Shown: positions 141-8,130 of the stretch, piece by piece
Layout: the number at the start of each line of letters is the position of its first letter
Numbering within the stretch: position 1 is the stretch's first letter
Source of the DNA: Pseudomonadota bacterium
GTDB lineage: Bacteria > Myxococcota_A > UBA796 > GCA-2862545
Direction: 5' to 3'
Assembly: GCA_023954855.1 (NCBI GenBank)
Contig: JAGSGY010000033.1
Span: 1-54,183, forward strand
DNA length: 54,183 nt
The notes under the pieces: model-generated
Told to the model about the DNA's origin: nothing
Database searches by the model: none
What the model saw: the letters and a program-made list of their open reading frames with translations, nothing else
Program-made: the position numbers and the translations under genes

Positions 141-327
141 AGGGCCTCGTGCCGTTTCCCATCCTGATCCCGTCTTCCGATCGGACCCGCTGAGGTGCTG
201 TTCCACGAGGAGGAAGGGGAGTGGTCCCACGTACCGCGGCCATTCTGGGAAGTGCGGTGAACGAGGTGTGAGTAAACCATTTCCCATTCGATTCGCCGAA
301 AATAGGGGTTCTACCGTGGAGCCAAAG

Positions 328-344
328 TTGGCACGCCTCCTGCA
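328..344 (+). promoter_or_regulatory. Sigma-54-type (-24/-12) promoter for the giant RNA
   Basis: The sequence TTGGCACGCCTCCTGCA matches the sigma-54 consensus YTGGCACG-N4-TTGCW at all but one position (C for the first T of the -12 box). The invariant GG (330-331) and GC (342-343) are separated by exactly 10 bases, the strict spacing for this sigma factor. The predicted transcription start is near 354-356, a few bases before the first GAAA-capped hairpin at 362. If real, transcription would need an AAA+ activator, so the RNA would be conditional. No activator binding site was identified with confidence. Confidence 0.7.
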
Positions 345-354
345 TAGGCTCTCT

Positions 355-2220
355 ACGACATCCGGGAAACCGGTGTGACCGACAAGACGGTGGCTTCGGC
401 CTCGGTCGTCGGAACTGCTCTTTGACGTCAAAAACCCCAAGAAGACAGCCAACGCTTCGGCGAAGGCAGCTTCCACACTCGGACAGACGCGGTCGAGCGA
501 TGTGTCAGATGCTTGCATCAGGCTCCATCGAAATCGAACGCGGGATCGGCCGACCCGGCAACGGGTCCACCCGCGAGTGCGGCAAGTAAGGTCTTGGAGG
601 GGAACCAAACCCAAGGAAGAAACGGGTTCCGCTGGCTGGCAACGGTCACCGGAACAACGGACTCATTGGTGGAGCAAAGCCTCGAGGACGCGCGCTAGAC
701 AAGACACTCTCTCTTCGGAGAGGGACATTGCTAGTCGGTGTCGGCCGAGCGGCGACGCAGAGTACGAAGGACCCGCAAGGGCCTGCGACCTGCGGAGCGC
801 TTCACCGCGCAGGAGCGGCTTTCGAGCTGCTTCGTGAGACCCATTCACGTCACTTGTGACGCGGATGCAGAGCGACTTCGGTCGCGACGAAAGGCAGACA
901 GGGACGAACCCCCGTTCTGCTGGAGGTCAGGGTTCCATCGGGCATGAGACTTGTCTCACAGGGCCCGGTGAACTGCAGGGATGTTCAACGCATGGACAAA
1001 GCATTGGGAAACCAATGACTCATGCGGGAGGTTCTGCAGAGACCTCATCGATGCTTCACGGCTTCGATGTCACCACAGTTCGCGTTCACCGTCACAAAGC
1101 GACAGGGGCAACCCTGAAGATGCGGACGGCGAGCGGCTTCACTCATCAGGCCCCTACGGGGAACACGCCACACCGGATTCCAATCTGGCGAACGTGTGAA
1201 AGAACGGGCCGGTTCATCGCTTCGGCGACGAATCCGGGAGTGCAGTTTGAGGGTCTTCGACGCTGAAAGGCGGCGGAGGTTCGAAGCGAGGAGTGTGCAA
1301 GGTGCCACGGGGAAGACAGGCCATCCGCAAGGATGTGTGTGTCCAGCCGAAGGACGGTCCATGTCGAGTTCACTTCAGCGATGAAGTGAGAGTCGACATT
1401 CGGGAGGTGCTGGCAAGGTCTTCGGACCGGGTCACGCAGTCCGAGCCAAGGGTTGCGAACGCTGCGGCGGCTGAAAGGTCACCGGGGGGCGCGCAATCGG
1501 GGCGAACGTCGAGGGGGCAACGGCCGTAGTGATGCGGCACGGCTACCAATGAGGGGAACTCTTCGAAGGGTGAATGCGCTGTTTGGAAAGGGGCCTGTAG
1601 GGCTGCATCTTCGGATGCGGGTCGCAGGTCATCGGAAATACAGCGAATCCTGTCTGGCTGTGAGGCGAAATAGACTCACAACAAGCAGAGGGCTTAAGCC
1701 GTCGAGGTGGTGCGAAACCACGAGGACGGAACGGGCGAGTGATGGGAGTCACTTGCACGAGTCGAAGAGTGGAATCTTCGATGAGAAACGGGCCACTGTT
1801 TGCGGTGCCGGAAGCAGGACATTCACGCGGGCGAATTTCAAGACAGGCGGATGATTAGCGTCATCCCGGCTGGCCACTGAAATCCTTGAAGGTGAGGGCA
1901 AGATCAGGAGGAAGGCGCGTCTTTTTCAACCCGAACAAAGGCAACTGCGCAGTCCAGAACCGGAAGACCTTGAAGTCCTACACGGCAACGTGGGAAGGGC
2001 AAGAAGGACGCAGCAAATCCACAAGAGCTGCTACGGAACTGGACCCGAGCTTCGGCTCGCTTATCTCGAGGGTCCGTCCAACATCACGAGGGATGCCCCG
2101 GCGCTTCGGCGACGGGAGATTGGCTAGAACGCGAACCTGTGAAGGAACGTCTCGACCACATTCAGGATGTCACCATCGGCCTCCGAATCTCGAAAGAGAT
2201 TCGGGGGCCGTTGTCGTTGT
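355..2220 (+). ncRNA. Giant structured non-coding RNA (~1.9 kb), unrecognised class
   Basis: No reading frame here has protein-like composition, although long spurious frames are common in such GC-rich DNA. The + strand is instead full of perfect short hairpins with stable loops. UUCG loops: 392-401 (inside helix 377-382/402-407), 453-462, 707-724, 815-830, 872-885, 1217-1228, 1417-1428, 1605-1618, 2046-2059 (inside 2041-2045/2071-2075), 2102-2111. GNRA loops: 362-373, 552-567, 772-781, 1002-1017, 1103-1116, 1322-1335, 1371-1388, 1981-1992, 2177-2210. CUUG loops: 508-519, 849-860, 945-958. UACG: 1152-1161. Other stems: 601-606/625-630, 1028-1032/1042-1046, 1736-1742/1749-1755, 1763-1768/1775-1780, 1849-1854/1861-1866. 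UUCG, GNRA and CUUG loops are stable only on this strand, which fixes the orientation. A sigma-54-like promoter precedes it and a terminator hairpin ends it. No group II intron domain V, reverse transcriptase, RNase P or tmRNA signature was seen. Function is unknown; a very long leader of the downstream dehydrogenase is an alternative. Confidence 0.85.
2177..2220 (+). terminator. Intrinsic-type terminator closing the giant RNA
   Basis: A 15-bp stem pairs 2177-2191 with 2196-2210, including one U-G pair, and is capped by a GAAA loop at 2192-2195. It is followed by the U-rich run UUGUCGUUGU (2211-2220). This is the longest uninterrupted helix noticed in the region and sits at its 3' edge. The U tract is interrupted by C and G, so termination may be partial, and some read-through into the dehydrogenase gene about 30-40 bases downstream is possible. 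Confidence 0.75.
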
Positions 2221-3860: not shown

Positions 3861-4838
3861 GTGAGTTCCATTCTGCTTCTCTGTCTGCTGGGAACGGGCT
3901 TTGCCGCCCCGGCGAACCCGACCGAAACCGTGGATGTGGCCGCCCTGGAGCTCGACCTTAGTGAGGGGTCGAAGGGCAAGCGCCGCCGGGCTGCGCATGC
4001 ACTCGCCCGTCATCACCTGGACCAGGGTGAGGCACTACAGGCGGCACGGGCACTCGGCACGGTCGACCGTCACCGCAGCTTGGCGCTCATCGATGCCGAG
4101 GCCAGAGCGGGGCTGGTGGAGACGAGCCGCGCAGCGAGGGAAGTGACCGATGGGCCGCGGGTCTTCGCAAGCTGCGAGGCGGCGGAGGCCTTGGGAGAGC
4201 TTCCGCTTTCGATGCAGTTCGACCGCGGCTGGGCCCACCTGATGAACGGCGACATTGCGAAGGCGACGACCGACCTCGAGGTGGCCTACGCGGGGCTTCC
4301 CGCCGAAGACCGGCCCTTCGTGGCCGCGCTGGTCTCCGAAGTCCGACGGGACGGCGAGCCCCATGTGGCGCTCGATTTCGCGACGCAGGGCGTGGAGCTC
4401 GAGCCGGGAGCGTTCGAGACCGACTTGCACCTCCTGCGTGGACTTGCGGCCTGGGAGGCGGGTGAACTCGATGTGGCTCGGGACGAGCTCGCTTGGCTTC
4501 ACGCCGGTCGTCCGACCTTCACTCATGCCGTCTGGCTCGGAAGCGTCGAGCTCGAGCGCGACCAACTGGACGACGCCTACGCGCTCTTCGAGCAGGCCAT
4601 TCGCCTCGATGGCCAGCGCACCGAGGGCTGGCTTGGACTCGCCATCGCTGCTGAGCGTCGCGCGAAAGAGGCCGGTGGCGACTCCAGCGAGGTCGAGGGG
4701 GCCCTCCGTCGGGCGGCGCAGCTTGCCCCCTACGATGCCGCCGTGCTCGTAGAGCTACATCGCGTGCTGATCGAGGCCGGAAAGCCGAAGGAAGCTGCGG
4801 CGATTCAGTCGCGCGTCGACTTGCTCAAGACGCCCTAG
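3861..4838 (+). CDS. Exported tetratricopeptide-repeat protein
   Basis: 325 residues starting at GTG. The first 16 residues (MSSILLLCLLGTGFAA) form a signal peptide with an AxA-like cleavage site. The rest is alpha-helical with TPR character: RGWAHLMNGDIAKATTDLEV, then LRGLAAWEAGELDVARDELA and LGSVELERDQLDDAYALFEQ, each with the small/large residue spacing of TPR units. It is probably a periplasmic scaffold; no partner is indicated. It is divergent from the selenoprotein gene (48 bp apart) and convergent with the M48 peptidase gene, with the two stop codons sharing CTAG at 4835-4838. Confidence 0.75.
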   Translation: MSSILLLCLLGTGFAAPANPTETVDVAALELDLSEGSKGKRRRAAHALARHHLDQGEALQAARALGTVDRHRSLALIDAEARAGLVETSRAAREVTDGPRVFASCEAAEALGELPLSMQFDRGWAHLMNGDIAKATTDLEVAYAGLPAEDRPFVAALVSEVRRDGEPHVALDFATQGVELEPGAFETDLHLLRGLAAWEAGELDVARDELAWLHAGRPTFTHAVWLGSVELERDQLDDAYALFEQAIRLDGQRTEGWLGLAIAAERRAKEAGGDSSEVEGALRRAAQLAPYDAAVLVELHRVLIEAGKPKEAAAIQSRVDLLKTP

Positions 4839-6031
4839 TCGAGGGCCTTGGGCTCACCCAGCGCGATGTCGGCGGTGGATTCGGGCACGTCGAGGGCCTC
4901 GGCGCAGCTACGCAGAAAGGCACGCTCCGAAGCGTGGGTGTGTTCATCGGCCTTGGCAATCAGCGACAGGTCCCGCACGAGCTGGGCGCGTCGTCCGACG
5001 CCGACGAGAGTGCGAACCTTGTCAGCTCGCTCCTGCAGGTGGTCTCGGAGTAGCACGGGGTTCAGCGTGTCCGGGACACGCGCCGCTCCGAGCAGGCTTC
5101 GCAGCGTGGCGACCTCGCTCTTGGTGATCTCTCCGTCCATGCCCGAGAGCACCACACCCGCGGCAAAGAGGTAGCGGCGCATCGCTTCGGCAGCGTCGCT
5201 GTCCTCGTCCAGGTAGGACGGCTCCATCAGCCGCATCGACTCCTGTACCTGGGTCTCGACGAGGGCCAGGGGCTGCGGGCCCTGCATCAGCGTGGAGGCT
5301 GCAAAGGCCTGGGCCGCGCGCAGACGGATAGGCGAGAAGGGGTGTGAGGCCATCCAGTCCGTGCTCGGTGCCGAACGGTTCGACTCGGTGCCCTCGATTT
5401 CCTCGACCAGCTCGTGGGCCTGGTCGATGAAGGCCTTGATCTGCTCGGGACCGGGGGCCGTGCGCAGTCCGCTCGAGAGCTTGAATAGCGACCGCGCGGC
5501 CGCGTCGAGTGAGCCCGCCACCACCAATCCGGCGCGGTCTGCGGAGATCTCGGCGTAGCGCTGCCAAGCGAACAGGTCGAGAGCGGTGCGCGCCGGCACG
5601 CCGGAAGACTCGTGAAGCAGCGCGCCAAGGGGCAGGCCGTGGTGATCGAAGACGTGGTGTCCCAGCTCGTGGCCGAGCACGAACGCGAGCTCGTCGGGGG
5701 CAAAGGCCTCGAGCAGCGAGGAGCTGAACAACACGAAGACCCGTCCGCGCTCGGGACGGGCGCAGGCCGCGTTGAACTCGGCGGCTGGGTAGACGTACAG
5801 CTCGACTTCAGTCGGCACCTCGAGAATGGAGCGGCCCCGCTCGAGGATGGTGTGCAGGTCGGGGGCAATGGTCGGCGTCAACCGCAGCGCTCGTGAGAGA
5901 AAGTGCCGCCGTGTGCCGAGCTTCTCGGGCTGGCGAGCGAGCGCTTCGAGAACGCGCTGAATGCTGGCTTCTTGGCTGAGCCTCTCGCGTAGCTGTCGGT
6001 CGCGCTCGGCCTGAAACGTGGAGGGAGTCAT
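4835..6031 (-). CDS. M48-family zinc metallopeptidase with a C-terminal TerB-like domain
   Basis: 398 residues. The zinc motif HELGHH is at residues 121-126, with the third ligand region AEISADRAG downstream, as in M48 (HtpX/Ste24-like) peptidases. The usual N-terminal membrane helices are absent, so it looks soluble. The last ~130 residues (from DGEITKSEVATLRSLL to ADEHTHASERAFL) resemble a TerB-type helical domain with acidic loops, an unusual partner for M48. The ATG at 6031 overlaps the TGA of the upstream gene (ATGA, 6028-6031), indicating translational coupling. Substrates are unknown. Confidence 0.85.
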   Translation of the reverse strand: MTPSTFQAERDRQLRERLSQEASIQRVLEALARQPEKLGTRRHFLSRALRLTPTIAPDLHTILERGRSILEVPTEVELYVYPAAEFNAACARPERGRVFVLFSSSLLEAFAPDELAFVLGHELGHHVFDHHGLPLGALLHESSGVPARTALDLFAWQRYAEISADRAGLVVAGSLDAAARSLFKLSSGLRTAPGPEQIKAFIDQAHELVEEIEGTESNRSAPSTDWMASHPFSPIRLRAAQAFAASTLMQGPQPLALVETQVQESMRLMEPSYLDEDSDAAEAMRRYLFAAGVVLSGMDGEITKSEVATLRSLLGAARVPDTLNPVLLRDHLQERADKVRTLVGVGRRAQLVRDLSLIAKADEHTHASERAFLRSCAEALDVPESTADIALGEPKALD

Positions 6032-8130
6032 TCGGGAGTCTCCGGGTCGCCGGCGTAGCGCCAGGTGAGCTTGCCATCGCCGAGCCAAGTGAGCTCGATG
6101 TCGCCGAAGGGCGAAGACATGAGCAGTTCGAGGTCGTCCGGGTCGTGCCCCTCTTCATCGAAGTTGTCGATGCCGGCGAAGCGCAGCTGGATGCGGTCGC
6201 CCTCGATCACATTGTCTTCGGCAGAGTAGATCTGGTCGCCGTACTTGAGCTTGAAGATCGGCCGCAGGATCGAGAGTTCGCGCGGAAGCTCGATGAGCAC
6301 GTTGTCGTTGCCGTACTTGGACTCCACTGCGAGCGAAGCGCTCTTGAAGGCCTCGCGCTTGGCCTCTTCGACGGTCTCTTCGAACTCGGGATGGCGCTCG
6401 ACGGTGGGGTGGACCACGACCTCGTCCCGCTTGGCCGCGACGCGCCGCTTCTCGCGGAACTCCTCGGCCTCGGCGATTTTGTATTCCTCGGTCTCGACCC
6501 AGGTCACCGCCTCGTCCGCGATCACGATGGCCCGGTGTCTTACGACGTCGTCGCGGTCCTTCTCTTGGCCGAAGACGGTCGCGGTCATCGGCACGTTGCC
6601 GAACGGGGTGCTGTCGTGGGCGAGCACCGCGGGCACGGTCTCGGGCGCGGCAAAGGACTCGTAGTCATCCGGGTACATGTCGGTGAACTGCACGACGAGC
6701 ACGAGGGTGGCGTTGTGCAGCGTCTTCGGGCTGCGGTTGGTGATCGAGATGTTCACGCCGCTTCCGACCAATGGGGCCGACACGTCGAGATCCAGGTAAG
6801 CGTCCTCGGGGAAGATGTCCCAAAAGCGCGGGCCGAGCAGGTCGTGGCAAAAGGTGAGGTCCGAGAGCACGAAGCCCCACTCCTTCTGCGCGCGCCTGCG
6901 GGCGAAGTGGTCCATCACCTTCTGGTTTCCGGCGTCCATGTCGCCCTGCTCGAACAGCATCGCGGCCATCTGCAAGTCAGGAGAGAAGCCACCGGCACCG
7001 AGCATCGTGCCTTCGTACAACTCGAGGATGAAGCTGCCCTCCCGTGACTTCCGTAGGTACGAGCGGGCCCGGTAGGGGTCGGTCATGTCGCTGAGCGCTT
7101 CGGCTTGGCGCGGAAAGTAGGCCGCCGACTGCTGAAGCGTGAGCTCCGCCTTGTCGTATTCGCCGCGCTTGGCCTGCAGCGTTCCTTCGAGGAGCAGTGC
7201 GGGCGCGGTGCTGTCCGGGTGTTGCTCTTTGTATTCGTCGAGCAGGCGCACAATCTCCGGGTCGTCCTCGACGATGCCCCGCTGGATCATCGCGTAGGCC
7301 TTGAGCAGGTGGGCCTCCCGCTCCTTTGGGGCCGCCTCGATGGCTTCATCCGCGGCGGCGATGGCCGCGTCCCAGTCACCGTTGTGCACGGCCAGGTAGG
7401 CCCGGTCACGCTTGATCGACAGTCGGTCCCACTCGTCGAGGTACTTGTAGTAGGTGTCACCGTAGTCGAACATCGTTCGCAGCAATTCCGTCTCGAGCTG
7501 CGCGACATCGCGGACGAGCTGCTTGCGTTCGGCCCGCTCGCTCTTGAGATCGCTCAACAGCTGCTGAGCCTGCTCCTTGTCGACGGCGAAGGTGCCAGCG
7601 GGGCTTGCGAGGTTCACCTCACCCGAGACCGAGACCACGGACAGCGTCGAGAGCAGAAGCTCTGAGGTCATCTCCCACATGGCGTCCTGGTCGCCGGCCT
7701 CGACCTGCTTGGCGTACAGGCGCAGGAGGGGCTCCATCAGCTCTTTGCGGGCTTCGAGCACCTCGGGAGCGACATCGCGGTAGTCCTGCATCGCGACATG
7801 CTTCATGTACTCATCGAGCGACTCTTTGCTCTCGAGGGCGCGGTCGAGCTCGTGGATGACGCGAACGGTGGCGTCGATGTCGTACCCGGGGTCCTTCGCG
7901 CCTGCGCTGAGCGCGTCCATGGCGGGCTTGAAGGTGCCGTTGGCCTCGGCGAGCTGGGCCTCTTCTGCGGCGGTACGACGGGCTTCTTGGCGGCTCGAAT
8001 AGGCGTAGTAGCCCCCGATCGGCAACAGGAAGGCCGCTGCGAGAATCAGTCCGCACCCCATGCCCATCTTGCGCGTGGTGGAGCCCTTTGGGGCGTCGTC
8101 CGCTGGGGTCTCGATGTCGGTGTCGCTCAT
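6028..8130 (-). CDS. Large membrane-anchored helical-repeat protein, function unknown
   Basis: 700 residues from the ATG at 8130 (MSDTDIETPADD). A single transmembrane segment (GCGLILAAAFLLPIGGYYAY) lies near residues 24-43. The following ~380 residues are helical and partly TPR-like (AIAAADEAIEAAPKEREAHL; ALLLEGTLQAKRGEYDKAEL). The C-terminal ~300 residues are beta-rich, with a segment (VGSGVNISITNRSPKTLHN) resembling an immunoglobulin-like fold. I do not recognise a family. It is translationally coupled to the downstream M48/TerB peptidase, suggesting that it anchors or presents the peptidase or its substrates at the membrane. Confidence 0.7.
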   Translation of the reverse strand: MSDTDIETPADDAPKGSTTRKMGMGCGLILAAAFLLPIGGYYAYSSRQEARRTAAEEAQLAEANGTFKPAMDALSAGAKDPGYDIDATVRVIHELDRALESKESLDEYMKHVAMQDYRDVAPEVLEARKELMEPLLRLYAKQVEAGDQDAMWEMTSELLLSTLSVVSVSGEVNLASPAGTFAVDKEQAQQLLSDLKSERAERKQLVRDVAQLETELLRTMFDYGDTYYKYLDEWDRLSIKRDRAYLAVHNGDWDAAIAAADEAIEAAPKEREAHLLKAYAMIQRGIVEDDPEIVRLLDEYKEQHPDSTAPALLLEGTLQAKRGEYDKAELTLQQSAAYFPRQAEALSDMTDPYRARSYLRKSREGSFILELYEGTMLGAGGFSPDLQMAAMLFEQGDMDAGNQKVMDHFARRRAQKEWGFVLSDLTFCHDLLGPRFWDIFPEDAYLDLDVSAPLVGSGVNISITNRSPKTLHNATLVLVVQFTDMYPDDYESFAAPETVPAVLAHDSTPFGNVPMTATVFGQEKDRDDVVRHRAIVIADEAVTWVETEEYKIAEAEEFREKRRVAAKRDEVVVHPTVERHPEFEETVEEAKREAFKSASLAVESKYGNDNVLIELPRELSILRPIFKLKYGDQIYSAEDNVIEGDRIQLRFAGIDNFDEEGHDPDDLELLMSSPFGDIELTWLGDGKLTWRYAGDPETPE

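Follow-up and report, generated by a model that had tools for sequence, protein, structure and literature searches.

What does a bacterial contig encode over almost 1.9 kb in which no protein can be read? This question is raised by positions 355 to 2220 (+ strand) of the 54,183-nt stretch of DNA analysed here, which we call the window. Comparison with related loci demonstrates a conserved, sigma-54-associated, closed-ended family of predicted giant RNAs that is absent from Rfam 15. The most likely interpretation is a new class of giant ornate RNA, presumably controlled by sigma-54, which would act in trans as a structural RNA or RNP. For the fuller reading, which takes the locus to be a stand-alone gene whose giant, structured non-coding RNA is type member for a new family within one phylum and acts in trans as an architectural RNA, we estimate a probability of about 0.55. 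To our knowledge, bacterial non-coding RNAs of more than 1 kb are hardly known beyond rRNA and introns.

Strand-specific hairpins and absence of a protein frame

A giant structured non-coding RNA with a predicted length of 1866 nt is assigned to 355..2220 (+ strand) on the basis of its hairpins, minimum free energy, covariation and arrangement as a promoter-to-terminator unit. The + strand of this region carries 26 tetraloop hairpins with a stem of at least 3 bp and 18 with a stem of at least 4 bp, against 2 and 1, respectively, on the - strand. The + strand loops comprise ten UUCG and one UACG (stem of at least 3 bp), 12 GNRA (nine at a stem of at least 4 bp) and three CUUG. This recount bears out both the loop inventory of the first-pass annotation (UUCG 10, GNRA 9, CUUG 3 and UACG 1, + strand) and the strand bias of stable loops that it had pointed out. 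At a stem of at least 4 bp, same-length tiles from the rest of the window contain 0.33 such hairpins on average (maximum 2), and 500 first-order Markov shuffles contain 0.56 (maximum 5). When 17 family members are pooled, 143 tetraloop hairpins are found on the + strand and 6 on the - strand, compared with 23 and 34 in 137 kb of flanks. The minimum free energy of 355-2220 is -820 kcal/mol, corresponding to z = -9.0 relative to dinucleotide shuffles, and the opposite strand gives z = -3.9. Neither this analysis nor the earlier annotation found a credible coding frame in 355-2220: the open reading frames are short, all six frames are interrupted, and the open frames are not common to the three closest full copies.

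Promoter, terminator and paired ends

A putative sigma-54 promoter is located at 328..345 (+ strand; TTGGCACG-N5-TGCAT), from which transcription is predicted to start at around 355. Its GG and GC elements are 12 nt apart, the spacing required of a -24/-12 promoter with the consensus TGGCACG-N4-TTGC. All 14 order-level copies that align over that block have the motif, as do all 13 order-level copies compared as promoter-to-terminator units. At the other end, an intrinsic terminator occupies 2177..2220 (+ strand), with a hairpin at 2177-2210 and a T-rich tail. Terminator-like hairpins of differing sequence stand at the end of 11 of the 13 order-level copies, and compensatory changes are visible between them. 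The limits of 355 and 2220 proposed in the first-pass annotation agree with the predicted start and with the end of this tail.

The conserved region 5' of the promoter (279..320, + strand) is a candidate activator-binding region. It is kept in genus-level copies whose more distant flanks are unrelated, and paralogues, 94-96% identical across 280-356, fall to near background upstream of position 243. Candidate activator sites are provided by two TTTCCCAT-like boxes (150-200 and 278-300) that lie 5' of the promoter and are kept between near-identical copies at different sites. The RNA would be made under conditions that activate sigma-54, with its activators engaged. Among distant loci, a sigma-54 site lies 465-529 nt upstream of block D (see below) in 8 of 39, and these eight have no second site on the same strand in upstream stretches of at most 1.5 kb. 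Sigma-54 control is apparently not universal across the family, given that a recognisable site is absent in 31 of the 39 distant members, and some lineages may use a different promoter. One genome of another family (G063) has six copies (L120-L125), none with a recognisable sigma-54 site.

The two ends of the RNA are predicted to be joined by a closing helix, P1, in which GACATCC (357..363, + strand) pairs with GGATGTC (2165..2171, + strand). Swapping of 5' and 3' ends between copies provides a test independent of the concatenated-core alignment described below: cognate ends have a mean pairing score of 21.9 against 17.0 +/- 0.96 for swapped ends, and none of 20,000 permutations reaches the cognate value. 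Two copies have uninterrupted closing helices of 19-20 bp.

A sigma-54-type promoter with an apparent upstream conserved region would also be expected of a trans-acting regulatory RNA, pairing with mRNAs or sequestering a protein, that is switched on by sigma-54 in starvation or development. Multiple paralogues per genome are in line with such a role, as is the precedent of Pxr, a small three-stem-loop RNA (PMC5684412) from the probable phylum of this RNA, which gates development in myxobacteria (PMC5684412; PMC5568312). Nevertheless, the size of the RNA and its covariation, which is in paired rather than unpaired elements, exceed the needs of an antisense RNA, and many distant members have no sigma-54 site, making a Pxr-like role rather unlikely.

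Conserved blocks and the variable domain

Four blocks (A, B, C and D) recur in constant order on the + strand, with very different spacing between copies. Block A (307..444, + strand) recurs in order-level copies and includes a perfect 12-nt palindrome, TTTGACGTCAAA (421..432, + strand), a possible hairpin or self-pairing site whose core TTTGA(A)CGT is kept in order-level copies and missing from nearly all distant members. Both this palindrome and the loop on the first D hairpin were weighed as kissing-loop sites, and neither covaries as a palindrome. Block B (593..695, + strand), which has profile matches in order-level copies, resembles block D. Block C (1505..1572, + strand) contains a covarying hairpin and the 3' strand of a long-range helix, B-C, in which CTCATTGGT at 662..670 pairs with ACCAATGAG at 1545..1553 (+ strand; columns 117-125 with 194-202 of the concatenated-core alignment) and most pairs are double-compensated.

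Helix B-C encloses a structured, fast-evolving variable domain of about 800 nt (698..1502, + strand), which holds many of the tetraloop hairpins and double-changed pairs. With lengths in relatives of between 34 and about 1460 nt, this domain is the main source of the size range of the family, whose unit length is 1866 nt here, 1835-1879 nt in copies of the genus, 1085-2669 nt in the order and about 960-1000 nt in the distant family. The largest members seen, of about 2.66-2.7 kb, are three separate copies in one genome, G003 (L044, L045 and L046), within which there is no convincing predicted gene.

Block D (about 1633..1739, + strand; covariance models R1/R2) is the conserved core found phylum-wide, and consists of a covarying hairpin at 1660-1679 and a hairpin at 1699-1729 whose internal loop, GAG/GAG, is symmetric. 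Blocks B and D resemble diverged internal repeats, with GGAGNAA followed by a helix containing a GAG/GAG-type loop, and in two loci (L051:2832-2955 and L026:1168-1298) the D model picks up block B of its own RNA as well; the likeness of the two blocks possibly reflects an internal duplication.

Covariation

In a MAFFT alignment of 28 order-level copies of block D, 9 of 14 predicted pairs have changed on both sides; one of the D pairs is G-C in 11, A-U in 10 and C-G in 7 sequences, and broken in none. A phylum-wide set of 60 distinct rows was aligned to the covariance model, an alignment that leans towards structure, and here 98.6% of cells are paired, double changes occur in 13 of the 14 pairs, and double-changed cells number 176 against 41.5 in shuffles. 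The covariation score is matched by none of 500 shuffles, and sliding the partner column by 1-3 lowers the pairing of D to 29-48%. The concatenated core (5' end, B, C, D and 3' end of 13 copies), which contains helix B-C and the pairing of the two RNA ends, folds at -185, compared with -63 +/- 5 for column shuffles; double changes affect 52 of its 94 pairs, and 18.7 of 67 in the shuffles. A comparison of the three closest full copies gives double changes at 125 of 551 predicted pairs, spread across the whole molecule, as a raw count with no shuffle control.

The first-pass annotation had proposed compensatory changes in the stems of homologues as a check on its interpretation, and these are clearly seen; it had named an intact protein frame in homologues, or stems that do not covary, as grounds for giving it up, and the homologues examined have no intact frame and strong covariation. 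Covariation and strand-specific hairpins together support a selected structured RNA rather than chance. The alignments establish the predicted architecture as a multi-branched conserved core (B, C and D) with a variable structured domain inserted. The core would be an assembly or binding surface, adapted by the variable domain.

A short-chain dehydrogenase gene lies directly downstream of the unit, which might suggest an mRNA leader or a decayed protein gene, if not chance structure in GC-rich DNA. An origin of this kind is barely conceivable: the RNA has its own terminator before that gene, downstream genes in relatives lie in either orientation, and the hairpins are strand-specific, while the deep covariation of block D and the concatenated core contradicts all three versions.

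Copies, distribution and genomic context

Elsewhere in the genome containing the window, contig C132 bears another full copy, 73-76% identical, and contigs C144, C114 and C130 have fragments at their ends. These three pieces are 99-100% identical to the window across the RNA and 94-96% across the promoter, with outer flanks at about background. Since the 5' flanks of C52, C144 and C114 all differ, the genome has at least four loci together with C132. Near-identity of the copies within unrelated outer flanks would be expected of a gene of which the product, not the location, matters.

BLAST matches are found in 25 of 94 related genomes. The covariance model of block D matches 34 of the 63 genomes of the order, and a refined core model matches 70 of 379 genomes in a phylum-wide sample, with 1-6 copies each, both being lower bounds under strict filters in a model search that covered one phylum. 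Nearly all model matches are better than 1e-8, which gives a clean split between carriers and non-carriers, and the distribution within the phylum is wide but patchy. The named records in which the block A motif occurs are MAGs of uncultured 'Deltaproteobacteria' or 'Proteobacteria' (UBA796, UBA2957, SAT32, GEM2.Bin11, M1803 and others); UBA796 is placed in unclassified Deltaproteobacteria in NCBI. The carrier phylum is probably Myxococcota of GTDB.

No neighbour proteins are common to different families, their identity and orientation varying, and no conserved adjacent partner gene was found across families. Nor was an association with tRNA islands, as in GOLLD, found, tRNAs being only occasionally nearby. 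The sister genome has no synteny usable for an empty-site comparison. At 4838-6088 (- strand) of the window, a predicted protein combines an M48 peptidase domain with a TerB-like domain. The simplest reading of this context is a stand-alone, chromosomal gene for an RNA that would act in trans.

Several copies of 99-100% identity with unrelated outer flanks in one genome, and the patchy distribution, could also be the mark of a selfish or mobile non-autonomous RNA element spreading through the genome. However, gene conversion accounts just as well for the identical copies, and selfishness alone does not require the strong conservation of promoter and terminator. No transposase or reverse transcriptase was found to accompany the RNA, and neither phage and plasmid records nor pattern scans of IMG/VR gave a match to it. 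A selfish element is therefore improbable.

Significance and comparison with known RNAs

At gathering cut-offs, Rfam 15 gives no match in the window or in 23 related loci, and relaxed searches give only chance-level matches far below cut-off, so that 'no recognised class', the verdict of the first-pass annotation, holds for Rfam 15. OLE, GOLLD and ROOL are families included in Rfam, and their models are not among the matches in the window, the 23 loci or the relaxed searches. No matching description was found in the open-access literature. GOLLD, with many members above 800 nt (PMC12286853), and OLE, at about 600 nt (PMC9723947), are far smaller than this RNA of 1866 nt and its relatives of up to about 2.67 kb, in agreement with the size comparison made in the first-pass annotation.

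We consider it reasonably probable that the family is a new phylum-level class in the size range of 16S-23S rRNA, an RNA machine or assembly (scaffold, cage or ribozyme) made on demand through sigma-54 and with no known counterpart. A conserved family of 1-2.7 kb, carried by about a fifth of the genomes in a sample of one phylum, would widen the range of RNA machines, and its many natural variants lend themselves to cryo-EM and covariation studies. The link of a giant RNA to sigma-54 control makes the condition of its expression directly testable.

Size, paired ends, a conserved core with variable peripheral insertions and highly conserved purine-rich internal loops (GAG/GAG) might also be features of a large ribozyme, for example a group II-like intron, divergent or circularly permuted, or else a self-processing RNA of a new kind, with a catalytic core and a peripheral variable domain. 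Domain V of group II introns has a catalytic AGC triad, a 2-nt bulge and a GNRA loop. Block D, by eye, is without this asymmetric bulge and GNRA-capped hairpin; its GAG/GAG loop is symmetric, and its cap measures 5-7 nt. Moreover, group I, group II and other ribozyme families give no match at E<=10 in the window and none at gathering scores in the 23 related loci, the RNA has its own promoter and terminator instead of exons, and the presence of reverse transcriptase does not track it, giving no link to a maturase. A ribozyme is thus unlikely, if the least so of the alternatives. Like group II introns, including circularly permuted ones (T-large), which are large bacterial non-coding RNAs of unknown role averaging about 900 nt (PMC8637638), this is a large bacterial RNA with a conserved core and variable insertions, and unlike them it has no domain V match or splice context here.

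Pxr, a regulatory RNA, is likewise encoded by a stand-alone gene in the same probable phylum, but it is small, and the present RNA of 1-2.7 kb is set apart from it by description.

An architectural RNA acting in trans would serve as an RNP scaffold, or would self-assemble like OLE, GOLLD and ROOL; the first-pass annotation had likewise suggested that it is perhaps a scaffold or multimeric RNA. Its size and ornateness, resembling those of the architectural RNAs of PMC12286853, count for this reading, and the missing partner protein counts against it: besides the reverse transcriptase, Ro60 (TROVE) shows no association, since just 5 of the order's 63 genomes contain it, this one not among them. 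No palindromic loop was found to covary in the way that supports self-assembly of OLE and GOLLD. Unlike GOLLD, ROOL and OLE, the RNA has a sigma-54-type promoter here, no sequence or structure match in Rfam 15, and no phage match, conserved adjacent partner gene or tRNA island. Like them, it is large, multi-branched, strongly covarying and stand-alone, with no known enzymatic activity, and its family, previously uncatalogued, is with 1.0-2.7 kb two to three times larger than these largest described ornate bacterial RNAs.
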